From Fibrobacter sp. UWT2 (GTDB lineage: Bacteria > Fibrobacterota > Fibrobacteria > Fibrobacterales > Fibrobacteraceae): a stretch of 64,000 nt of DNA. Each line of letters opens with the position of its first letter. The first letter of the stretch is position 1. Below are positions 5,319-59,351 of the stretch, piece by piece. The stretch is taken from NCBI RefSeq assembly GCF_900142545.1, contig NZ_FRBF01000014.1, forward strand, positions 1-64,000, in the 5' to 3' direction. Under the pieces are notes generated by a model. That model made no database searches, was not told where the DNA came from, and saw nothing but the letters and a program-made list of their open reading frames with translations. The translations under genes were made by a program, and so were the position numbers.

Positions 5319-6449
5319 TCACATGACTTCCAAGAGCAATTTTTCGTCGGGCATGACTGCTTTCAGTTTTTCCGGCATAACCTTGTAGGTTGCAACACCC
5401 ATAGGCTGGTTGTAATCTTGCAACAGATACTCAACAAACGACCTGTCCGCGCCCTTACACAGAATAATGCCGATGACCGGATTTTCGTTCGCCTTCCGTT
5501 CATCGTCATTCAACACGCGCATGTATGCCGAGAGCTGTCCGAGATATGCAGGCTTAAACTCCCCTTTCTTTAATTCCACAACAACAAGACTCTGCAACTC
5601 ACGATTATAGAAGAGCAGATCGACCCACATGTCGTGCTCAAGTTTTTCGATATGAACTTGATGGCCGACGTACGTGAAATCCTTTCCAAACGTCAGGATA
5701 AAATTCTTGACATTTTGGACAATGGAATTTTCAACAACGCGTTCGTCAATATCCTGGGGATTGCGCTCGTCGAGTTCTTCCACATTGACAAAGTCAAGCA
5801 GGTATTCGTCCTTGAACATCGAGATCGCCTTTTGCGCATGGAGCGTTTTGGGCAAGGTAAGGGCGAAGTTATTGGGAATCTGTCCCTGGTGATGAAACAA
5901 GTCCGCCTTGAGATAATCACGTAGGGTATACTTGTCCCAATGATTCAGGATGGATTGATGTATATAGAAAGCACGTTCTTCCAATGATGAGCATTTCCCC
6001 AAAATTTCTATATGATGCGTAAAACTCAGTGCTAAAAATTCGGAGAAGTCCAAATCGCCCGCCATTGGCGGTCGATTTATATCAAGAAGCGCAAAAATCG
6101 GTATTTTTGCCGATTTTTCTTCATTTTCGGCATTTTCCAATTCGCCCGCCATCGGCGGACGATTTAAAAAGCTACTCCATTCTTCATAGAATTGGCGCAT
6201 TTTTTTAATACTTGTGGGCGAAAAACCTCTTAAACCCGGCAATTCCCGCCGAAGTTGAGCACTTATCGTGCCAATCGCCCCTGTTCCCCATGTTCCCTCA
6301 CGGGAATTCTCGGATACAAACTTGCCCACCGCATAATACAACGAAAGCATCTGCTTGTTAGCCGCCCGAGCAGTCTCCAACTGGCTTTCGAGAATGGCAG
6401 ACTTTATCTGCTGAACAGCATCGTTATAAAACGGGCTTATTTTATCCAT
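5319..6449 (-). CDS. DUF1016 (YhcG-type) PD-(D/E)XK nuclease with palindromic inserts
   Basis: A 376-residue two-domain protein. The N-terminal DUF1016 part includes SENSREGTWGTGAIGTISAQ. The C-terminal nuclease core has MWVDLLFYNRELQSLVVVELK (D, then ExK). Known relatives are putative DNA nucleases or recombinases found in defence islands. The ATG at 6449 is chosen because GGAGG lies 5 nt before it; an upstream in-frame ATG would swallow that site. The linker between the two domains carries NRPPMAGEL and NRPPMAGDL, each encoded by a near-perfect palindrome, and this makes the linker longer than that of the second DUF1016 gene at 20739. Its leader is shared with the ORF6N gene. Confidence 0.88.
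   Translation of the reverse strand: MDKISPFYNDAVQQIKSAILESQLETARAANKQMLSLYYAVGKFVSENSREGTWGTGAIGTISAQLRRELPGLRGFSPTSIKKMRQFYEEWSSFLNRPPMAGELENAENEEKSAKIPIFALLDINRPPMAGDLDFSEFLALSFTHHIEILGKCSSLEERAFYIHQSILNHWDKYTLRDYLKADLFHHQGQIPNNFALTLPKTLHAQKAISMFKDEYLLDFVNVEELDERNPQDIDERVVENSIVQNVKNFILTFGKDFTYVGHQVHIEKLEHDMWVDLLFYNRELQSLVVVELKKGEFKPAYLGQLSAYMRVLNDDERKANENPVIGIILCKGADRSFVEYLLQDYNQPMGVATYKVMPEKLKAVMPDEKLLLEVM
6052..6078. repeat. Palindromic insert 1 in the DUF1016 linker
   Basis: Two 12-base arms (AAATCGCCCGCC and GGCGGTCGATTT) around ATT, with one mismatch. Read in frame on the minus strand it encodes NRPPMAG. The core CG-NN-CGCC-ATY-GGCG-NN-CGATTTA recurs at 6141-6165 and 8260-8283. Confidence 0.8.
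6141..6165. repeat. Palindromic insert 2 in the DUF1016 linker
   Basis: Arms TCGCCCGCC and GGCGGACGA around ATC, followed by TTTAAA. Same family as the copy at 6052. It is also in frame and encodes NRPPMAGEL, so the protein carries the peptide twice, about 27 codons apart. Confidence 0.8.
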
Positions 6450-6452
6450 TAC

Positions 6453-6640
6453 TGCCTCCATGTGGTCGCAATTTGTGACGCCGCTTTCGCGGCTGGTTTA
6501 TGTTAGAGGCGTTCTTGCATAACCAGAAAATCAATTAACGCAAAAACGCACCTCGCCTTAAAACAGCGAGATGCGTTCAGCGGTAATGTACGTAATATCT
6601 AAAAAGTTAGCAAGGGAGGCAAGAAAATTTTACAACTCCG
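6453..6640 (-). promoter_or_regulatory. Structured 5' leader of the DUF1016 gene (leader family, copy 1)
   Basis: Minus strand, in order: a conserved GTAAAATTTTCTTGCCTCCC upstream block; -35 TTGCTA (6613-6608); 17 nt; -10 TACATT (6590-6585); a perfect-stem hairpin with 11-base arms at 6576-6566 and 6556-6546 followed by TTTTTG, which looks like an intrinsic terminator placed right at the start of the RNA; a hairpin CTGGTTATG...CATAAACCAG; a GCCGC-GAAA-GCGGC tetraloop hairpin (6493-6480); then the GGAGG site. CGCCTCTA (6511-6504) can pair with TGGAGGC of that site. The leader holds a five-codon frame MQERL. Copy 2 lies at 8095-8260 and copy 3 at 59115-59260. Confidence 0.75.
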
Positions 6641-7011: not shown

Positions 7012-8091
7012 TCACTTTCCACTTCTTACTGCAGCTATTTCGGCGTTGATTTCGTTGAGTGTCATGTCGGCGGAACTAGCCTTCTCGGCGTCGGCGGAAA
7101 GTTGCTGCATGGTCCGGAACATTCGGTGTCTGTCATACAATTCCTTGAACATGTTTCGGTAGGCATCAACGTCGTCCAACTGGACGATAGTCGTAATCTT
7201 GTTGCCGGCATCCTTGCTCGAAGCTCCACAATGGAACAGCTTTTCACTTTTGGTCCTAAAGTCGACAAGAATATAGCGGTCGTGGAATTTGTGCGCCGCA
7301 GAAACCGTATCAATCGAAACGCCCGGCATTGCCGCACGAAAATCGTTGAGCATATCATCCGTTATGCGGGCATACCGATCACTCGCAATCAAAATAGATA
7401 CGCCCTTACGCGCATTCCGGAGCAAATTCAGCGTCTTGATGTCAACATAATTATCAACAACCAACAACGATTTCTTCGCCATGCCGTAAATCTGCGCATA
7501 GGCGACATCAGCTTCCAACTTCTGTCCGTTCAAAATTAAGAAGTGCTTGTATGTCGAGGGATCAACGAAGTTTTCCATGACTTTCTGAAGATCAGATTGA
7601 ATGACCGCTATATCCTTGGTATTTCTTTCAGTTTGCACGGCAATTTGGGCAATGCCGTCATAACCCAATAAATTCCGATTTTCAGCAATGATATAGTCTT
7701 TCATCTGCTTGAAAAGGCGAATAAGGGCCATACTTTGACGAATCGCAAGGTCACCTTTTAAAACCGTCATAAGCATATAGATGCCCTGTTCGGTGAAGGC
7801 ATACGGCAATTTTCGTGTTCCACCCCAACTTGATGTGCATTTTTTGCACATCAAGTTTTGCATTTCATCCTCACTCAATTGAAATCGAAAATCCTCCGCA
7901 AATCGATCAATGTTATTTTTTACCTGGCGATTGAAAAATCTCGTCTCGTATCCGTAAATCTCGGCCAAATCTGCATCGAGCATCACCTTGAGCCCGCGGA
8001 TGGTATATATCCGCGATTTGAGCAGGGTTTCGTCAATAAGCGGGAACTCCGATTTGACTGGCGCAACCGCCATATCATTCTTTTTAGCCAT
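7012..8091 (-). CDS. ORF6N-domain protein with PLD-like C-terminal part
   Basis: A 359-residue protein. Residues about 25-125 form an ORF6N DNA-binding domain (IYTIRGLKVMLDADLAEIYG, KNNIDRFAEDFRFQL, TSSWGGTRKLPYAFTEQG). The C-terminal half has QIYGMAKKSLLVVDNYVD and HKFHDRYILVDF, resembling phospholipase D-like folds seen in some prophage and abortive-infection proteins, although only one HxD-type motif is visible. GGAGG lies 4 nt before the ATG. The codons just before TSSWGG are a perfect 27-base hairpin (7829-7855). The gene has the same structured leader as the DUF1016 gene. A role in phage or plasmid control is inferred from context. Confidence 0.85.
   Translation of the reverse strand: MAKKNDMAVAPVKSEFPLIDETLLKSRIYTIRGLKVMLDADLAEIYGYETRFFNRQVKNNIDRFAEDFRFQLSEDEMQNLMCKKCTSSWGGTRKLPYAFTEQGIYMLMTVLKGDLAIRQSMALIRLFKQMKDYIIAENRNLLGYDGIAQIAVQTERNTKDIAVIQSDLQKVMENFVDPSTYKHFLILNGQKLEADVAYAQIYGMAKKSLLVVDNYVDIKTLNLLRNARKGVSILIASDRYARITDDMLNDFRAAMPGVSIDTVSAAHKFHDRYILVDFRTKSEKLFHCGASSKDAGNKITTIVQLDDVDAYRNMFKELYDRHRMFRTMQQLSADAEKASSADMTLNEINAEIAAVRSGK
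7829..7855. repeat. Palindrome inside the ORF6N gene
   Basis: Eleven-base perfect arms (CTTGATGTGCA and TGCACATCAAG) around TTTTT. In frame it encodes LMCKKCTS, directly before the conserved SWGG. A different palindrome occupies the matching codons of the ORF6N remnant at 24638-24660. Confidence 0.85.
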
Positions 8092-8094
8092 ACA

Positions 8095-8260
8095 GCCTCC
8101 ATGTAGCCGCGTTCGCGGCTGGTTGATGTTAGAGGCGTTCTTGCATAACCAGAAAGTCGATTAACGCAAAAAACGCACCTCGCCTTAAAACAGCGAGATG
8201 CGTTCAGCGGTAATGTATCTAAATATCAGAAAACTGGCAAGGGAGGCAAGAAAATTTTAC
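8095..8260 (-). promoter_or_regulatory. Structured 5' leader of the ORF6N gene (leader family, copy 2)
   Basis: Nearly identical to copy 1. Minus strand: upstream block GTAAAATTTTCTTGCCTCCC; -35 TTGCCA (8240-8235); 17 nt; -10 TACATT (8217-8212); hairpin arms at 8203-8193 and 8183-8173 with TTTTTTGCG behind them; CTGGTT...AACCAG hairpin; GCCGC-GAAC-GCGGC hairpin (8119-8106); GGAGG. The five-codon MQERL frame is present. The divergent helicase promoter begins about 85 bp away. Confidence 0.75.
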
Positions 8261-50506: not shown

Positions 50507-52405
50507 TTAGGTAGTGTAACGAAAATTGTACGATTTTTTCAACACATCAATCATTTCTTTTTGATGCTTTTGTATCTCGTCAACATTCCATTTTTCAATT
50601 TGATAGATTTTAAGCATCTTTAAACTTTCTACGGAACCTGCCATTGAACCTGAAACAAATGCCTTAACGTGTCCCTGCTTTTCTTCATACGGCTTATTTA
50701 GCAATAACGAATTCTGACCGGACGAAATCATGGCTAAGTTACCAAAGCAATGAAGGAACCTTCCATTTTCTGAATTCCATTTCATTGCACTACCTCCTAT
50801 TGGATTCTGTGGGGCAATGTGTTCTATTGACCGATTTCGCCTAAAAGCATAGTTTTCTGCCACAGTTCTATCTTCCAAAGCATTAAAATAAACTTCTCTA
50901 TTTTCCCACAAATAATAATCCAAACGCCAAAACCAATATCTGTCAATATTTTGATATGACAAGGCATCTTCACTTGGGACTCCTTTATGCTCATCAATAT
51001 CATTATCAATTTGTTTCAGTTTATTCAAAAAATCAACCGGACTAATAGGACGCTCAGAAGATTCAATATACTCCAATGCGGGACTTAGCCAGCGATAATA
51101 CGTAACCGGGGTAGAAGACACAAAAAGCATTGATTGAAATTGAATTAATTTTTTCTTTGCGGATTTCAAGCCTTCATCTTTTGCAGCATCCTCATCATAC
51201 ACATAATCATCAAGTACATAGGGGAAACCATCTGCATTTTGACGAATGAAATAATAATCTAAGATCAATCTATAATAGACCAATTTTTGCAAAAAAACAT
51301 CAACCTTAAATTTGTCTTTATATTTTTCAAAAGTATCTAACAAATTGCCAACTTTAAAGAATTCGGCAACCTGTATTTCATCTTTATCTTTCAAGACTTG
51401 ATACAAAACAAGTAATAAGAACAACGGAAAAGAAAACAATCCTATTTCAGAGAAATTCAATTCTCTTGGTTTTGGCTGTTGTGTACGAGCTGCAATATCT
51501 CGAATATTTTTACAAGCCTTGCTGTCTAATTTTTGTTCATTTTCTATTGAATAAATATCATTTAGCAATCTTGTCTTTATGTTTCTATCCAAAAAATTAT
51601 TTGGTATTTTTTTTGCACAGGACATCGCTTCAAAATATCGGTTACGAAAAGCTGCAGCTGCTTCCGTTTTTTTGCTTTCTTTTATCTTTCTGACAAGAGG
51701 AACATCCATATCTGCCACAATATTCCACAAACGAGAATAGAGTTCTTTATCAGAATCAATTGACTTCAGTAATTTTACTTTTAAAATTTCATAGTTTTCT
51801 AGAGCTCGCCCCGCGGAATTCATCGCTTCAAAATATTTATTCAAATCAGCCAAGGTATATCTCTGAGGAAGCGGCGTTATAAAGAAAGTCATATTCTCTT
51901 TTATGTATTTATCAAAAGCCAGCCTGTCTTCACATTTCAGATCAGAAAAAAATTTTTCAATGCACTTAATGCCATGGCACATTTTAGCATTTATATAACC
52001 ATCCTTTGGAGCAGCACCTTTTTTGCATAAAAATTTTACATATTCTTCATCAGGTTCTCGAGCAAAAAAAGTAAGTCTCAAGTTATTGTCTTCATGCGAC
52101 CAATAGAAATTCTCCCATCCTTGGACAACGGAAATCAATGTCATTACAGTAAAACGTTGCTGTCCATCAACAAGATCTAAACGTTGTTTCTTTTCCCCCT
52201 GATATACCGTCAACATACCTATATAATATGGGCGATTAAAATCTTTTGCGACCTTTGCTTTTGAATAAGAATCGTACAAATCTGAGAGCAACTGTCTTAT
52301 TTCATTTTCAGTCCACTCAAAAAGACGCTGATAAAGAGGTATTTCAAAAAGCCATTTGCCAATTGTAGCAGGGGTGTATTTTCCTTCTGATATGATTTCA
52401 TTCAT
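50507..52405 (-). CDS. DUF262 + DUF1524 (GmrSD-like) restriction protein
   Basis: A 632-residue protein. The N-terminal DUF262 has FEIPLYQRLFEWTENEIRQL, YYIGMLTVYQ and the nucleotide-site motif RLDLVDGQQRFTVMTLI (DGQQR). The C-terminal DUF1524 HNH-type nuclease has FRRNRSIEHIAPQNP (RxxxxEHIxPQ). This is the layout of GmrSD-type IV restriction enzymes, which cut modified phage DNA, as a single chain. It overlaps the second DUF262 gene by 8 bp, so the two are translationally coupled. AAGGAGG lies before its ATG. Confidence 0.88.
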   Translation of the reverse strand: MNEIISEGKYTPATIGKWLFEIPLYQRLFEWTENEIRQLLSDLYDSYSKAKVAKDFNRPYYIGMLTVYQGEKKQRLDLVDGQQRFTVMTLISVVQGWENFYWSHEDNNLRLTFFAREPDEEYVKFLCKKGAAPKDGYINAKMCHGIKCIEKFFSDLKCEDRLAFDKYIKENMTFFITPLPQRYTLADLNKYFEAMNSAGRALENYEILKVKLLKSIDSDKELYSRLWNIVADMDVPLVRKIKESKKTEAAAAFRNRYFEAMSCAKKIPNNFLDRNIKTRLLNDIYSIENEQKLDSKACKNIRDIAARTQQPKPRELNFSEIGLFSFPLFLLLVLYQVLKDKDEIQVAEFFKVGNLLDTFEKYKDKFKVDVFLQKLVYYRLILDYYFIRQNADGFPYVLDDYVYDEDAAKDEGLKSAKKKLIQFQSMLFVSSTPVTYYRWLSPALEYIESSERPISPVDFLNKLKQIDNDIDEHKGVPSEDALSYQNIDRYWFWRLDYYLWENREVYFNALEDRTVAENYAFRRNRSIEHIAPQNPIGGSAMKWNSENGRFLHCFGNLAMISSGQNSLLLNKPYEEKQGHVKAFVSGSMAGSVESLKMLKIYQIEKWNVDEIQKHQKEMIDVLKKSYNFRYTT

Positions 52406-53666
52406 TTAAGTCCTCCTTAAAGGTCGAAGAAAAAACATTCCCTTTTACTTCATTTATTGAATGTTCAAGCTGTTTTGTGTAACGTTCCATAATGGGAGCT
52501 CTATCCTTTTCCAACAATTCCATTTTATTATAAATATCCCTTGCCGCAGCCAAGAAAAAAGTCGGCGAACTAGCCTGATCGATAAGCAACATAAGTTTTG
52601 AGTTTCTTGATGATTTACGGATTACAAGGGTATCAACACGTTCACTCTCATAACGATATTGCGACACAATTTTGGAGATACAGATAAACGCTTCTGCCAT
52701 ATAAGAGTCTCCAAACTTTAAATAATACGCAAATAAGAGAGCTTCCATCACATCCCTAAAAAATACATGTGTTTCGCCATCAATTTTATGAACACTCTTG
52801 TATGTATCCGTTTGATGAAATTCTCGACATTTATTTATAAAAAAATCTGTATAAGCAAAAAAATGAGTCCCGCCCTGTATTGGTTCATTAAAAACAAATT
52901 TTTCGCCAAATGGAGGAACCTCGGGGATTGTTAAAGCAGACTCAAATTCTTCCTTAACTTTCAAATTTTCATTATCATCCCAATCATTTTGATAGAGCCA
53001 TTTACGCATGTGAAACAAATACTTTCCCATGGTAATATCTATTCTCTCATCACTAGTTTTATCAAGCAATATGGAATCCCAACGTTTTGCCATATGAATA
53101 GCCCATTTTTCATTGGGAATGAAATGAAGATGGTGAGACTTTAACAATTCATAACTTGTTAATTTCACGCCTTTTGAATTTTGGCTAGAGAAAAATGTGT
53201 ACGCCAAATCAAGGGACTCATCTTCCAAAACTAGAACAGCGAATTTTAAATTTTTCCGGATTTTCGCAGCCTTTTCAATTTTTAAATCTGCAAAATTCTT
53301 TATCCTATTTATATAGCGAGCGACAAGATGTTTGTTATAAGCAATATATTCTTCTGCTTCTTCGGATTCTATTTTTTCATCAAGCAATGGCAATTTTTCA
53401 GTATCACCTAGCTCGTTAAGAATTAATGTTAACGTAACAAGTCGCTGTTGGCCATCAATAATGTTCAGCTTGCCTTCTTTATTTTGAAGGATGATGCTTC
53501 CCATATGATAATCGGCATTCACACTCCAAATATCATCCAGAAGTTTATAAACATTTTTTTCACGCCAGCAATAAGTTCTTTGGTAATCTGGGATGCAAAG
53601 AGGAAATTCTTCATTACCAAATAATTCGTCTAATGAGCACGTTTGCAGTTTTACTTCAGATGACAT
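52398..53666 (-). CDS. DUF262 (GmrS-like) protein
   Basis: A 422-residue DUF262 protein: FPLCIPDYQRTYCWREKNVY, HMGSIILQN and KLNIIDGQQRLVTLTLILNE. The C-terminal half is helical and has no HNH motif, so it resembles the GmrS half or a regulatory paralogue. The ATG at 53666 lies 2 bp after the stop of the GIY-YIG gene and is preferred to an upstream ATG that overlaps it. The downstream gene carries DUF262 and the nuclease. The pair may be a two-DUF262 variant of a type IV system. Confidence 0.8.
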   Translation of the reverse strand: MSSEVKLQTCSLDELFGNEEFPLCIPDYQRTYCWREKNVYKLLDDIWSVNADYHMGSIILQNKEGKLNIIDGQQRLVTLTLILNELGDTEKLPLLDEKIESEEAEEYIAYNKHLVARYINRIKNFADLKIEKAAKIRKNLKFAVLVLEDESLDLAYTFFSSQNSKGVKLTSYELLKSHHLHFIPNEKWAIHMAKRWDSILLDKTSDERIDITMGKYLFHMRKWLYQNDWDDNENLKVKEEFESALTIPEVPPFGEKFVFNEPIQGGTHFFAYTDFFINKCREFHQTDTYKSVHKIDGETHVFFRDVMEALLFAYYLKFGDSYMAEAFICISKIVSQYRYESERVDTLVIRKSSRNSKLMLLIDQASSPTFFLAAARDIYNKMELLEKDRAPIMERYTKQLEHSINEVKGNVFSSTFKEDLNE

Positions 53667-53668
53667 AG

Positions 53669-54418
53669 TTATTTCTTCTTCAATGCACAAATTTGCTTAA
53701 CAATATTCTTTACAATCTCAATATCGGTATCTTCGTTGAACCGAAACGCGTATTGCGCAGAAGGCCATTGTCTATTAGATATGTCATATACAAGCCCAGA
53801 CTCGTCTTTGATAGAGCCCAATTTAACACTCAAAACAACTTCAATCCAGCCACTTTTTGGCCAAAGACAAACGATATTGCAGTGTTTTCCTTCGCCCTTT
53901 TTAAATGCAACATACCTTTGCAAAGGTTTCGCCTTAATTGCATTATCAAGAGAAATAATCGCTTTACTTATTTTATTGTATAACTGAGCAATCTCTGTTT
54001 TTGGCGGAAACAAAGATTCAACAGAATATTCTTCATCGATGAGTTCAGGTTTATCAGGTTCATTTACACCATAAAACTTTAGTTTATCACTTCTGCCATG
54101 CATTTGGGCTATAGCAGAAAGCATATCATAGGCGTCCCAAGGGTCTATTTCAAAAAATTCCCTGTTTGAAGAAATCCTTAACCTGGGATTAAGCAACTGA
54201 ATGAGATTATGAACTAACTTATCAGGATCTTTTGCGCCATTTATTCTTGGAATCTCGTAGGTGCAATACACCTTATAAGGAAGAGGAACAGATGTGCCGG
54301 AAAGGTCTTTGACTCGTTTGTCGACATCCTCAGCGTATCCAATCTTTATCCAGTTTGCCTTGTGGAAACTTTCATTGGTAAGGACATAAATAAAGCCCGT
54401 TTTTTCTTTCTGTTCCAT
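53669..54418 (-). CDS. GIY-YIG (T5orf172-like) nuclease-type protein
   Basis: A 249-residue protein. N-terminal GIY-YIG domain: TGFIYVLTNESFHKANWIKI, GYAEDVDKRVKDLS, with the motif in the FIYVLTN...KIGYA form seen in the T5orf172/Mug113 branch. NREFFEIDPWDAYDML follows. The C-terminal 100 residues are a separate alpha/beta part with KGEGKHCNIVCLWPKSGWIE (DUF5655-like in flavour, unsure). It lies 19 bp after hsdR and 2 bp before the first DUF262 gene, so all four belong to one operon. Confidence 0.82.
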   Translation of the reverse strand: MEQKEKTGFIYVLTNESFHKANWIKIGYAEDVDKRVKDLSGTSVPLPYKVYCTYEIPRINGAKDPDKLVHNLIQLLNPRLRISSNREFFEIDPWDAYDMLSAIAQMHGRSDKLKFYGVNEPDKPELIDEEYSVESLFPPKTEIAQLYNKISKAIISLDNAIKAKPLQRYVAFKKGEGKHCNIVCLWPKSGWIEVVLSVKLGSIKDESGLVYDISNRQWPSAQYAFRFNEDTDIEIVKNIVKQICALKKK

Positions 54419-54437
54419 ATTTCCTCATCAATCTTAT

Positions 54438-57400
54438 TTACAAATTCTTCTTAAAATTCTCAGCCTGTTCAAATATCTCCCCATAGACTTCGTCGCGTTC
54501 TACGGGCGGGTAGCCGAATTCATCGAGAAGGATTATCAGGTCCACTTTCAGTGCGGATTTAATGTCGTCGCGCTTGTCCCAATCGGGGTATGCGGCTTGT
54601 TCGTCAACGAGAATCTTGACGCGTTTTGAAAGAGCAATTAGTTTGTCTTCGGGATAGGTGAAGTGGTACTTGACGCAGAGCGATTTTAGAATGTCATAGA
54701 ACGCGGTTTCTTCGAAGCTGAGGCCTTTTTCTTCGCCTTCGGTAAACGCCTTGCGGACTTGGACAATCATGTCGGTCAAGGTTTCGGCCATTTCTTCATA
54801 GACTTCGCTTTTCAAGATGTCTTGTTCGGTGCGGTCGTTGTATTGTTCCACGAGCTGTTGCATTTTCTGCGTGAAGTTGACGCCCTTGACTTTGTTCACC
54901 TTGCGGATTTGCCCGATGGCTTTTTGCAGGAGCATTTGCAGCAACTTGATTTTCGTGTTCGGCAGCTTGATGCGGTTGATGTGCTGCAGGTATTCGTCGT
55001 CAAAGATGTTCTGCTTTGCCTGGTCGGCATCGGCATCGCTCAACTGCAGAACGTCTTCCACGCCTTCGCTCTGGAGTGCCGAGGCAATCATCTCGCGGAC
55101 GCGGGCGTTCATCTGCGCGGTATCGGGCGCATTGCCCTTGGTGAGTTTATGCAAAATGGAGCGAATTGCGAAGTAGAAATGCGCACGGTCGCGCTCGGCC
55201 TGCGTAATTCCCTCGTTGCCGACGCAAATGTCGTATGCGGCCTTCAGGCGTTTCGCGAGGCCCATAAAGCGGGCTTCCTTTTCCTTCGTGGTCTGCACGA
55301 ATTCCTGCGCTTGCTTGAGGCATTCCAGTTTCTTCAGTTCCGCTCCGTCGCCTGTGCTATTGAAATACGTCGACGCATCGAACTTGTACATCAGTTTGTC
55401 AAGCAAATCCAGATGATTGCGGAATTCCGTAATCGCAGCGGTAATGTCTTCCACGTTCTGCTCGGAACCGGCTCCGTACTGCTTTAACGCCAGGTTCATC
55501 TTGCGCTTGATGCCGATGTAATCAACGACAATTCCCTTGTCCTTGCCCGCAAACGTCCTGTTCACGCGGGAAATCGTCTGAATCAGGGAATGCTGCTGTA
55601 TCGGCTTGTCGATGTAAATGGCATCGAGGCACGGAACGTCAAAACCCGTGAGCCACATATCCACGACAATCGCAATCTTGAAGTTGGAGCGTTCCTGTTT
55701 GAAAAGACGGTCCAGTTCCTTGCGGGCGTCCTTGTCGCCGAGCAAGTCGTAAAGTTCCTTTTCGTCGTCCTTGCTGCGGGTCATGACCATCTTGATTTTT
55801 TCAACCGGCTTCAGTTCCCGCTTTTCCTTGTCGGTAAGTTCGGTCGCCTCGCCCGCAAATTCCGCATCGTTGCAGATTTTCGCCACGCCCCATTCCGGGC
55901 GCAGTTCCAAAATATTCTTATACAATGCATACGCAATCTTGCGATTATAACAAACGAACATCGACTTGCCGCGAACGGTCGATTTTTCCTGAACGCGGGC
56001 TTCGTAATGCGCCACGAAATCCTTCGCCACAGCCTTCAACCGGTCGGGGTCGCCGAGAATCACGCCCATCTGGGCCACATCCTGCTTGCTCTGGTCAATC
56101 TGGTATTCGTTGGCACCCGATTCTGCAGCTTCTTCGTAATACTTCTCAATCTCTTCGAGAACAGAATTGTTCAACACCACCTTGGCGGCACGACCCTCGT
56201 AAACGATGGGCACCGTAATGCCGTCCTTTACCGATTCCGTCATAGTGTAAATATCGACCTCGGGGCCGAACACATCGAGCGTCGCATCAATCGGCGTGCC
56301 CGTAAAGCCCACATAAGTCGCATTGGGCAAGGAATTGTGCAAGTAACGCGCAAAACCGAAACTCGTCTTGACGCTCTTATCGGTCACGGTAATTTTCTGG
56401 TCCAGGTTCGTCTGCGTGCGGTGCGCTTCGTCCGAAATGCAGACAACATTATCGCGGTCGGTCAGCAGTTCGATATCTTCGCTGAACTTCTGGATGGTCG
56501 TGAGGAACACACCGCCACTCTTGCGGCCCTGCAACTTTTCACGCAGGTCGGCACGGCTCTCCACGCTTTCAACACGCTCATCACCGATATACTTCTTGGA
56601 CGCCGTAAACAATCCCGAAAGCTGATCATCCAAATCGGTGCGGTCGGTAATCAGCACAATCGTCGGCGTCTTGAAGTCCAACGACTTCATGAGCAACCGC
56701 GTCAAGAAGAGCATCGTAAAGCTCTTGCCGCAACCCGTCGCACCAAAATACGTGCCGCCCCTGCCGTCGCCATGCGGCTTGCGAGCCTTGCAAATGTTTT
56801 CGTACAAAGACCGCGCCGCGTAATATTGCGGATAACGGCACAGAACCTTCTGCTCTTTCTTGCTGCTGTCCGGGAAATACTGGAAGTTCTTGAAAATGTC
56901 CAACAGGCGTTTGCGATTGAACATTCCCTGAATCATGGAGTAAAGGCTCTCGATGCCCTCGGCCTCGATTCGCCTGTCGCCAAATTCCACGCGTCGCCAC
57001 GCATAAAAATAATCGTACTTGGCAAAGAAACTGCCCGCCCTGTTGTTCACGCCATCGCTAATCACGCAGAAGGCGTTATAGACAAACAACTGCGGAATAT
57101 CACGGCGGTAACGCACCGTCAACTGTTCGTAGGCGTTGAAAACCGTCGCCTCTTCGCGCACGGCACTCTTGAACTCGAACACCACAAGCGGGAGCCCGTT
57201 CACAAAAAGGATTGCGTCGGGAATACGCTTTTCGGAACCGACAATTTCAAACTGGTTTACTATCTTGACGATATTGCAGTCGGCGCAGTATTTCGCCGCC
57301 ACATCGGCCGCCAGCGGCATCGCCTCTTCATCGGCATCGACACCGAAACCCGACTTTCTCTGTTCACCCAGCGGCCTAAAATCTGCAAGCTCAATGAGAA

Positions 57401-57704
57401 TGTCCTTATCCTTCGGGTTCTCGCGTTTGAGCATAAAACCGTCCGAAAGCCAGAAACAGAACTTCTTGTTGCTCTCATAGAGCGCACTCGCCGAAAGCGA
57501 ACGCAACTGCAAGACGATCGAGCGGATTTCGTTCTCGGTAATGCCCTCGGAATCGTAACGATGGTGCAAGTAGTCGCGCAGGTCCTGCTCAATCAAGACC
57601 TCGCCCTCGCCGCGGACAATCGCCTCGCCGGGCACGTACTTGCACCCCTCCTGAACCAAGAGGTCAATAAACACTTTCTCTAAGTCGGCTTCCTTGAACG
57701 CCAT
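54438..57704 (-). CDS. hsdR: Type I restriction enzyme R subunit, without M and S partners
   Basis: A 1088-residue HsdR. The nuclease core is IPDAILFVNGLPLVVFEFKS (D...ExK) near residue 165. The motor has Walker A YFGATGCGKSFTMLFLTRLL, then LITDRTDLDDQLSG, DEAHRTQ, VGFTGTPID, and the SF2 motifs IVVDMWLTGFDVPCLDAIYI and QTISRVNRTF. The C-terminal helical domain normally docks on HsdM. No hsdM or hsdS lies on either side within the window: the next gene upstream is an AlbA_2 protein. It could depend on distant M/S subunits or belong to a hybrid system with the GIY-YIG and DUF262 proteins. No ribosome site precedes its ATG. Confidence 0.93.
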   Translation of the reverse strand: MAFKEADLEKVFIDLLVQEGCKYVPGEAIVRGEGEVLIEQDLRDYLHHRYDSEGITENEIRSIVLQLRSLSASALYESNKKFCFWLSDGFMLKRENPKDKDILIELADFRPLGEQRKSGFGVDADEEAMPLAADVAAKYCADCNIVKIVNQFEIVGSEKRIPDAILFVNGLPLVVFEFKSAVREEATVFNAYEQLTVRYRRDIPQLFVYNAFCVISDGVNNRAGSFFAKYDYFYAWRRVEFGDRRIEAEGIESLYSMIQGMFNRKRLLDIFKNFQYFPDSSKKEQKVLCRYPQYYAARSLYENICKARKPHGDGRGGTYFGATGCGKSFTMLFLTRLLMKSLDFKTPTIVLITDRTDLDDQLSGLFTASKKYIGDERVESVESRADLREKLQGRKSGGVFLTTIQKFSEDIELLTDRDNVVCISDEAHRTQTNLDQKITVTDKSVKTSFGFARYLHNSLPNATYVGFTGTPIDATLDVFGPEVDIYTMTESVKDGITVPIVYEGRAAKVVLNNSVLEEIEKYYEEAAESGANEYQIDQSKQDVAQMGVILGDPDRLKAVAKDFVAHYEARVQEKSTVRGKSMFVCYNRKIAYALYKNILELRPEWGVAKICNDAEFAGEATELTDKEKRELKPVEKIKMVMTRSKDDEKELYDLLGDKDARKELDRLFKQERSNFKIAIVVDMWLTGFDVPCLDAIYIDKPIQQHSLIQTISRVNRTFAGKDKGIVVDYIGIKRKMNLALKQYGAGSEQNVEDITAAITEFRNHLDLLDKLMYKFDASTYFNSTGDGAELKKLECLKQAQEFVQTTKEKEARFMGLAKRLKAAYDICVGNEGITQAERDRAHFYFAIRSILHKLTKGNAPDTAQMNARVREMIASALQSEGVEDVLQLSDADADQAKQNIFDDEYLQHINRIKLPNTKIKLLQMLLQKAIGQIRKVNKVKGVNFTQKMQQLVEQYNDRTEQDILKSEVYEEMAETLTDMIVQVRKAFTEGEEKGLSFEETAFYDILKSLCVKYHFTYPEDKLIALSKRVKILVDEQAAYPDWDKRDDIKSALKVDLIILLDEFGYPPVERDEVYGEIFEQAENFKKNL

Positions 57705-57790: not shown

Positions 57791-59113
57791 TTATTTCAAG
57801 ATTTGCCACCGTCCATTTTTTCGAGCTCCTACGCGGGCAATACACGATTTTTCCCGTAGAGCTTTCAAAGTCCTATTAATCGTCGGTTCGGAATAACCCG
57901 TTTCATGCATAAGTAAGGGAACTGTAATGGAAGGATTCCGCTTTATTTCTGCGTAAATCAGCGATTCCGTTTCCGTAAGTTTTATCCTATCGTTTATCCT
58001 ATCATTTATCCTATCATTTATCCTATCACCCAACCGCCGCAATCCTTCAAAATAGAACGAAGTCCGCATGAAATGATCCGTAAACGAGAACGCCTTTTCA
58101 TCATAGGAACGCAGAATACGCCGCATGCCGCTCCCGAGCTGTTCGACCATATCCAAGTCATGGAAAATACGCATAAGTTCGCGATTGCGCGGCATAGAAC
58201 AGCAGTTGAAGAAATCTTCTTTTGAAAGGCCTTCCACCAACCCGCCGTAGTTTGTTATTTCCATCCTGTCAGAAAAAATCTCAAACAGGGGCGGGACCTC
58301 TTTCGTGTAATCATTGTGAACGACAGCGTTGATTACCGCCTCGCGCAAGGCAACCGGGTCGACCAGCGGCTTTTCGATACGTTCCATAGGTGTAATTTGA
58401 GCATGCGTAATGTTCGCCACCTGCAATCGCATGAGCACTGATTTTACAGCCTTAATAACGCTACAATAGCCGAATTCCTCATTTTCAATAAGGTCATATT
58501 TGTCCGTGCCTTTGTACCGCGCCACCTTTATGGATACTCCGTTTTCATCAGCAAGGAGATAAGCATTGTAATTGTATTTTCCGTCGGGAGTAAGCAACTC
58601 CAGCGTCTTGGCAAACTGACTGTTCAAGGGCTTTTTGCTCTCTTCGTAGTAGATTTTTAACTGACTAAATGTCAAGTCTTGCCGCGGAGCCGGAATCTTG
58701 GCAAGAGAAATCTTTGCGCGAGAAGCAAAAGTTTCTAGGATTATCTTTTCGCTCATTCCATGGACTGAACTTCCCACACGCACAAAGCAACCTTCGGGCG
58801 TCATACCCGCCTTTTTTAGATAATACGGTTTTTCCGGGCCACCCGAAATCGCCACATGAACGATATTTTTGTTGTCTTTTTCCTCCGTCACGACTTCAAA
58901 GAGTCCGATAGCATTCGGCTTGATATTGTTCAAGATCCTATCCGCTACTTGACGCTGCACATGGTCTATGTCCTTTACTCCATATACAGAGCCATCGTCA
59001 TTGACTCCAATATAGATGTGTCCGCCTGTAGAATTCAGAAAAGCAATTACAGATCGCTCAAAAGTTTCGGACAGTTCTCGCTTGTATTCAACAAGATGAT
59101 TTTCGCTGTTCAT
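57791..59113 (-). CDS. AlbA_2/Schlafen-like protein with a tandem-repeat linker
   Basis: A 440-residue protein. The AlbA_2 domain is at the N-terminus (VEYKRELSETFERSVIAFLN, STGGHIYIGVNDDGSVYG, CFVRVGSSVHGMSE). HATPase-like residues follow (ALREAVINAVVHNDYT, MEITNYGGLVEGLSKEDFFN, EQLGSGMRRILRSYD). A linker with DRINDRINDRINDRIK joins a winged helix (ITVPLLMHETGYSEPTINRT). GGAGG lies 4 nt before the ATG and can pair with an upstream CGCCTC. It carries leader copy 3. It lies upstream of hsdR on the same strand, with 86 bp between them. Confidence 0.87.
   Translation of the reverse strand: MNSENHLVEYKRELSETFERSVIAFLNSTGGHIYIGVNDDGSVYGVKDIDHVQRQVADRILNNIKPNAIGLFEVVTEEKDNKNIVHVAISGGPEKPYYLKKAGMTPEGCFVRVGSSVHGMSEKIILETFASRAKISLAKIPAPRQDLTFSQLKIYYEESKKPLNSQFAKTLELLTPDGKYNYNAYLLADENGVSIKVARYKGTDKYDLIENEEFGYCSVIKAVKSVLMRLQVANITHAQITPMERIEKPLVDPVALREAVINAVVHNDYTKEVPPLFEIFSDRMEITNYGGLVEGLSKEDFFNCCSMPRNRELMRIFHDLDMVEQLGSGMRRILRSYDEKAFSFTDHFMRTSFYFEGLRRLGDRINDRINDRINDRIKLTETESLIYAEIKRNPSITVPLLMHETGYSEPTINRTLKALREKSCIARVGARKNGRWQILK
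57981..58028. repeat. 12-bp tandem repeat in the AlbA_2 gene
   Basis: Four units of ATCCTATC(A/G)TTT-type sequence in frame, encoding (DRIN)n. Gain or loss of a 12-bp unit would change linker length by four residues without a frameshift. Confidence 0.88.
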
Positions 59114-59114
59114 T

Positions 59115-59260
59115 GCGCCTCCATTGGGTAGTTGAGGCGTCCCTTTATTCCGGAAACCCAGAATAAAAAAAGACGCGGTTCTCCATTTGACAGAGAACCA
59201 CGTGCAGCTTTAATGTACCTAATATCTAAAAGGCTGGCAAGGGACCTAAGGAAATTTTAC
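59115..59260 (-). promoter_or_regulatory. Structured 5' leader of the AlbA_2 gene (leader family, copy 3)
   Basis: Minus strand: upstream block TTGTAAAATTTCCTTAGGTCCC; -35 TTGCCA (59240-59235); 17 nt; -10 TACATT (59217-59212); hairpin with arms ACGTGGTTCTC (59203-59193) and GAGAACCGCGT (59183-59173) around a nine-base loop, then CTTTTTTTA; CGCCTC (59139-59134), which can pair with GAGGCG of the ribosome site (59120-59115). Promoter, spacing, loop length and U tract match copies 1 and 2, but the stem sequence is different and fully compensated. Confidence 0.75.
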
Positions 59261-59288
59261 AATCAGGAAAGGACAAAATATTGTTCTC

Positions 59289-59310
59289 TATTTATTAGAA
59301 AACCTCCTTA
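59289..59310 (-). terminator. Terminator-like hairpin after the 125-residue gene
   Basis: AAACCTCC and GGAGGTTT arms around a six-base loop with TTTC behind it on the minus strand, about 40 bp past the stop of the gene at 59352. Confidence 0.55.
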
Positions 59311-59351
59311 CTAGGAGGTTTGTAGATATTACTTCCTATACTTACAACTAA

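Follow-up and report, generated by a model that had tools for sequence, protein, structure and literature searches.

Hairpins at the 5' end of a transcript are known from the stabilizing stem-loops of the ompA type. In the vmlR gene of Bacillus subtilis, transcription attenuation and translation attenuation can be combined (PMC9226507), and in RCd22-abiF a terminator-bearing RNA lies before a defense gene and acts as an antitoxin (PMC12373285). We analyzed a leader that occurs three times in a 64,000-nucleotide stretch of DNA from Fibrobacter sp. UWT2 (contig NZ_FRBF01000014.1, positions 1 to 64,000; the window). Our leaning, held with moderate confidence, is that it represents a structured mRNA leader specific to the Fibrobacteraceae that has moved as one portable module, consisting of its own promoter plus an attenuator and ribosome-site lock on DUF1016/YhcG, SLFN_AlbA_2, DinD-like, ORF6N, and toxin-antitoxin genes. 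The three copies comprise the following features.

59212 to 59258, minus strand: A/T-rich block AAAATTTCCTT and sigma70-like promoter of copy 3; the conservation shared by the copies starts abruptly at (T)TGTAAAATTT
59240-59235 and 59217-59212, minus strand: promoter boxes of copy 3, TTGCCA and TACATT, with a 17-nt spacer
59173 to 59203, minus strand: P1 hairpin of copy 3, class B; 5' arm 59203-59193, loop of 9 nt, 3' arm 59183-59173
59165 to 59172, minus strand: U tract of copy 3, CTTTTTTT, terminator-like, immediately 3' of P1
59137 to 59176, minus strand: P2 hairpin of copy 3, GCGTCTTTTTTTATTC paired with GGAATAAAGGGACGC (59151-59137); GCGT is common to P1 and P2
59116 to 59139, minus strand: P3 hairpin of copy 3, CGCCTC (59139-59134) paired with GAGGCG; covers the Shine-Dalgarno (SD) sequence GGAGG at 59122-59118
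57791 to 59113, minus strand: gene of copy 3, encoding an SLFN_AlbA_2, HATPase_c_4, and winged-helix protein of 440 aa
54438 to 57704, minus strand: hsdR, next after the copy 3 gene
6546 to 6576, minus strand: P1 hairpin of copy 1, class A; promoter TTGCTA-N17-TACATT at 6613-6585, 3' strand of P2 at 6518-6509, SD at 6459-6455
5319 to 6449, minus strand: gene of copy 1, encoding a DUF1016_N and YhcG_C PDDEXK nuclease; the start is placed at 6449, past the SD, and the mechanical open reading frame begins at 6461
8173 to 8203, minus strand: P1 hairpin of copy 2, class A; promoter at 8240-8212, 3' strand of P2 at 8144-8135, SD at 8100-8096
7012 to 8091, minus strand: gene of copy 2, encoding an ORF6N-domain protein of 359 aa

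The P1 hairpin of copy 3, from which the analysis started, lies on the minus strand and exists as described in the original prediction, with its two arms, a 9-nt loop (able to shrink further, as three extra pairs are possible within it), and a U-rich tail, C(T)7, behind. Copy 3 reads TTGCCA-N17-TACATT, 8 nt, ACGTGGTTCTC-TGTCAAATG-GAGAACCGCGT-CTTTTTTT on the minus strand, and the P1 hairpins of copies 1 and 2 are identical to each other in sequence (ACGCATCTCGC-TGTTTTAAG-GCGAGGTGCGT). The prediction that P1 stands at an equal distance from the -10 box behind similar promoters also agreed with the sequences, the distance being 8 nt in all three copies and the upstream promoter region 79 to 82% alike. 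Its count of at least six paired positions changed on both sides was too high: between copies 1/2 and copy 3, both partners differ in 4 of the 11 pairs (positions 5, 6, 7, and 10), only one partner differs at position 4 (C-G to U-G), and the other six pairs are the same. When the observed 5 + 4 arm changes were placed at random, the chance that all 11 pairs survive was 0.00024. With 92% identity across 155 nt, copies 1 and 2 are near-duplicates of each other, and the leader of copy 3 has an identity of 0.88 to one from another genome (L197) compared to 0.61-0.63 to copies 1 and 2; its nearest leaders (L197, L199, and L194, all in other genomes) precede a near-identical AlbA_2 start. Because P1 is identical in copies 1 and 2 and the closest matches of copy 3 come from other genomes, the window supplies about two independent data points, and relatives were needed for the test.

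The 3.49-Mb assembly yielded leader matches only at copies 1, 2, and 3. In a DNA search, 27 of 60 relatives carried the leader, every one of them from the same genus; a covariance model trained on 47 leaders matched 65 of the 150 genomes scanned from the phylum, restricted to three genera of one family, Fibrobacteraceae. A 24-base degenerate pattern, run against one genome per species (84,980 species), matched 40 stretches, all labeled Fibrobacter, Fibrobacteraceae, or Fibrobacterales; the pattern had no match in viral contigs. Rfam gave no match in the window at the gathering threshold, nor did four loci with leaders match any family when hits up to E = 1 were admitted, and our literature search on Fibrobacter leaders or start sites returned nothing relevant. 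As far as we could search, the leaders constitute an RNA family that is absent from Rfam and has no earlier listing.

Alignment of 113 leader copies revealed a consistent order of parts. The border of conservation is sharp at (T)TGTAAAATTT, with the sequence 5' of it mostly unrelated among copies, and is followed by the sigma70-like promoter, P1, the U tract, P2, and then a GCCTC segment whose pairing with the Shine-Dalgarno GGAGGC forms P3; P3 usually encloses a variable hairpin, P4. The sequences of P1 fall into class A (copies 1 and 2), class B (copy 3), and class C. Behind P1, the first 8 nt contain 6.34 T family-wide (28% T overall), so that a G/C-containing hairpin runs directly into a U-rich tract, the layout of an intrinsic terminator. 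Copies 2 and 3 were flagged as terminator-like, copy 1 with its weaker tail (TTTTGCG) was not, and terminator-like matches were no more numerous in the region of copy 3 than in shuffles. A leader peptide or ribosome-mediated attenuator was considered because copy 3 has a short Phe-rich open reading frame starting from the ATG in the class B loop; this candidate was rejected, as classes A and C lack the ATG.

Several leaders carry insertions. A hairpin element of ∼70-80 bp (CTCGGCAATG, a variable covarying stem, and CGCTGCTCTCGGC) that looks like a REP/MITE-type repeat is inserted in the U tract of L053, L055, L042 (leader at 2073), L059, L089, L087, L107, L088, and L078 (leader at 243); of 13 genomes of the genus, 9 contain similar elements, and none was found in the genome of the window. 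A related element (GCGCCAAATGCTAGGCTCGGTCAT, stem, GCTGCGACACTCGCCTTACGCATTTGTG) has been inserted into the -35 region, where it restores a -35 box of sequence TGTGCCA, in L043, L051, L061, L089 (1814), L094, L097, L104, L078 (243), L154, L156, L157, and L164. Just 5' of copy 3, an AACCTCC-tagta-GGAGGTT hairpin (window 59255-59325, minus strand) is probably the terminator of the preceding genes.

We investigated covariation in two ways. In a structure-blind MAFFT alignment of 47 leaders, 99.4% of P1 cells were paired, compared to 30-59% for slid partners, and 70 cells had two-sided changes versus 22.5 in shuffled data; seven of the pairs were two-sided. A tree-aware test modeled on R-scape (our own re-implementation of its substitution-shuffling null, with a FastTree tree, substitutions redistributed along branches, and an APC-corrected G statistic) was applied to 112 leaders. 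The top three among ∼8,000 column pairs were P1 34-64, P2 79-125, and P1 31-67, all exceeding each of 100 null alignments, although non-pairs such as 29-64 also rank high owing to the class structure, and much of the covariation signal stems from classes A, B, and C. The P1 pairs 30-68 and 33-65 passed as well, within the structure set. In the same ranking on the MAFFT alignment, the top two places went to P1 pairs and the third to a P2 pair; covariation figures from alignment A2 carry the caveat that it was fitted to the structure. Counted on the tree, P1 underwent 11 two-sided and 49 one-sided pair-keeping changes (60 in all) versus 7 breaking ones, and slid partners over seven of those pairs gave 33-44 breaking changes. 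The covariation in the stem, for which the original prediction had itself named a wider alignment of homologous leaders as the test that could overturn it, was thus borne out, and its claim of selection on the hairpin itself is supported by the near-complete pairing, the two pairs above every null value, and the excess of pair-keeping changes. As judged from these comparisons, the selected structure is larger than the predicted stem and takes in P1, P2, and the ribosome-site hairpin: P2 was 97.5% paired and the whole structure 96.1% (84.8% when shuffled), and the anti-SD/SD pairs (helix 3) included a few two-sided changes. The covariation of P2 and P4 is weaker than that of P1.

These results bear on the suggestion that unrelated terminators landed by chance behind a common promoter, leaving a duplicated or mosaic leader without selection. 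The near-duplication of copies 1 and 2 fits such a history, as does the grouping of copy 3 with leaders of other genomes and apart from copies 1 and 2, but more than 100 copies retain the fixed distance, the U tract, P2, and P3, and covariation is seen inside the classes, so we consider this explanation barely credible.

The type of mismatch pointed to the molecule under constraint. On the coding strand, P1 contained 72 G-U and 4 A-C cells, a ratio that the opposite strand would reverse, and the constraint therefore acts on the coding-strand RNA; this favors RNA made from the gene's own promoter as the level at which selection would operate. Covarying pairs on the coding strand are what a structured cis-regulatory RNA leader should exhibit. 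The same count speaks against a DNA-level element, either the operator of some dimeric repressor or a cassette recombination site that folds as a single strand (like integron attC), a reading that we consider highly improbable. Inverted repeats in DNA can retain symmetry through co-evolution, and modules with a sharp upstream border that are swapped between genes do suggest mobility; nevertheless, operators conserve sequence whereas here both arms change, and a DNA site would have no need of a hairpin over the SD such as P3.

The leaders precede diverse genes. The 139 downstream proteins included 39 with DUF1016_N, 35 with YhcG_C, 32 with SLFN_AlbA_2, 19 with Bro-N, and 9 with ORF6N, with HTH and DUF2442 proteins among the others; about 40 of the 139 matched the PADLOC defense candidate PDC-S02, DinD-like genes were also among those bearing leaders, and some leaders stood before pairs that, judged by eye, resemble RelE/HicB-type toxin-antitoxin modules. 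The window also holds a further DUF1016 gene and a further AlbA_2 gene that have no match to the leader, as does one AlbA_2 gene elsewhere in the genome, and the leader is therefore not obligatory for these genes. A strong tie to type I restriction, considered for the adjacency of copy 3 to hsdR, was rejected as a defining trait since the neighbors at 40 other loci are mixed (3 N6_Mtase and 3 HSDR_N among 76 proteins). The region around hsdR (window 50507-57704, minus strand), in which hsdM and hsdS were not identified, contains two neighboring GmrSD/DUF262-like genes (50507-52405 and 52398-53690) and a further gene (53669-54418) that adjoin hsdR. Two complete leaders elsewhere (L042:2073-2435, plus strand, and L052:2138-2691, minus strand) are followed by a few codons and a stop; these are possible footprints of lost or exchanged genes.

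Leader class and protein identity were found to be uncoupled. Among 184 protein pairs with at least 75% identity, 50 differed in P1 class, including proteins up to 97.8% identical, and the protein of copy 1 shares 91.5% identity with a protein whose leader belongs to class B (L073). Different P1 classes before proteins of 91-98% identity indicate that leaders were exchanged as whole units while the fold persisted. Stepwise compensation does occur within the family, but the contrast between the copies in the window probably originated, to judge from these protein pairs, in leader replacement by recombination. The exchange also speaks against an RNA antitoxin, in which a short P1-terminated RNA would neutralize the downstream protein (in the manner of type III toxin-antitoxin systems or AbiF/RCd22) and the terminator would set the ratio of RNA to protein. 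The layout of promoter, structured RNA, terminator, and defense gene is that of RCd22-abiF (PMC12373285), and toxin-antitoxin-like pairs and defense candidates do lie downstream. One leader family, however, precedes unrelated protein families with the same P1 classes across them, no cognate RNA-protein pairing is visible where nearly identical proteins have different classes, and tandem RNA repeats are absent, all of which leaves this explanation very doubtful. Antisense control of the type I toxin-antitoxin kind was set aside for the copy 3 leader, where no convergent promoter was flagged.

Overlapping pairings were evident in the structure. The last four bases of P1 (GCGT) double as the foot of P2, which also re-uses the U tract, and at the shared positions both partners change together: the column triple 25/73/130 was A/T/A in 89 copies and G/C/G in 11, and on the P2 side a C at column 75 was partnered by G and a T mostly by A. 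The predicted folding energies of P1 and full P2 are -18.5 and -17.0 kcal/mol, near-equal values of the sort that a switch would need if the predictions hold. P1 prevails in the predicted ensemble, in which the inner part of P2 often persists and the SD is closed. The predicted probability of an unpaired SD had a family median of 0.01, versus 0.22 with shuffled upstream sequence (0.17 for copy 3), consistent with the pairing of the SD in the ground state that defines a translational attenuator.

The folds were derived by comparison, and from them we infer termination and a closed ribosome site in vivo. RNA polymerase starting at the leader promoter would mostly stop at P1 and the U tract to yield an RNA of ∼40 nt; any read-through RNA would fold into P1, P2, and P3, so that ribosomes find their site closed. 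Expression of the downstream gene would thereby be held low by attenuation of both transcription and translation until read-through or opening is favored. P2 might stabilize the read-through form or loosen P1 when something else acts. Since P2 is transcribed after the U tract, it cannot provide classical cis antitermination for the same polymerase, and the switch may be weak because P1, inner P2, and P3 can coexist. Another point against the lock is that the predicted terminator lies ∼35 nt from the predicted start, which is unusually close.

We regard a further possibility as unlikely: P1 may mainly be a 5'-terminal stabilizing stem-loop of the ompA type that protects against 5'-end decay, with P3 alone controlling translation and the U tract serving as a mere strand of P2. 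P1 starts 8 nt past the -10 box in 65 of 81 copies, which places it at the predicted +1/+2, and P2 does account for the U tract as a pairing strand. Conversely, the U strand underwent 8 changes compared to 31 on its P2 partner strand (p = 0.0003), conservation beyond the apparent need of P2, and L102 keeps the promoter yet has an unrelated hairpin and a T-rich run just 5' of the SD (L102:2416-2545, minus strand; CATTTGATgattATCAAATG then TTTTTCTTTTTTTT directly 5' of the SD). The conclusion that the Us are kept for more than P2 pairing is suggestive only, because exchange of A and G opposite a U is free.

For the favored attenuator and ribosome-site lock, DUF1016/YhcG nucleases, Schlafen AlbA_2, ORF6N, and DinD-like proteins are of particular interest as products of common defense-type genes about whose control little is known. 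One promoter-plus-RNA module precedes all of these gene types across a bacterial family, and it can be replaced by a version of different sequence and the same fold before an almost identical gene. A built-in RNA lock on acquired defense genes, and the signal that opens it, become directly testable. A single trans-acting signal to which all leaders respond by opening, for example an antitermination or RNA-binding factor or altered host transcription under phage attack, seems to us rather improbable; if it existed, the scattered, swapped-in defense and toxin-antitoxin genes would form a single RNA-controlled Fibrobacter regulon.

In comparison with known systems, the Fibrobacter leader resembles the ompA type in the position of P1 at the predicted 5' end and differs from it in the conserved U tract and SD-pairing hairpin behind. 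With the insulating terminator T1 of Tn916 it shares a terminator, predicted in the Fibrobacter case, that guards genes of horizontally moving units, but T1 blocks incoming host transcription (PMC11658703) and the Fibrobacter hairpin follows a promoter that belongs to the module itself. AbiF/RCd22 (Rfam RF03085) and type III toxin-antitoxin systems have the same succession of promoter, structured RNA with terminator, and defense gene (PMC12373285), whereas the Fibrobacter leader has no Rfam match, RNA repeats, or single cognate protein family. Leader attenuators of the vmlR type (PMC9226507) share with it the 5' leader hairpins, an intrinsic-terminator-like element, a sequestered Shine-Dalgarno, and overlapping pairings. 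The Fibrobacter leader differs from them in having no conserved leader peptide and no start codon in the class A P1 loop, in a hairpin that begins at the predicted +1, and in being common to unrelated defense-type genes among which it is swapped as a module.
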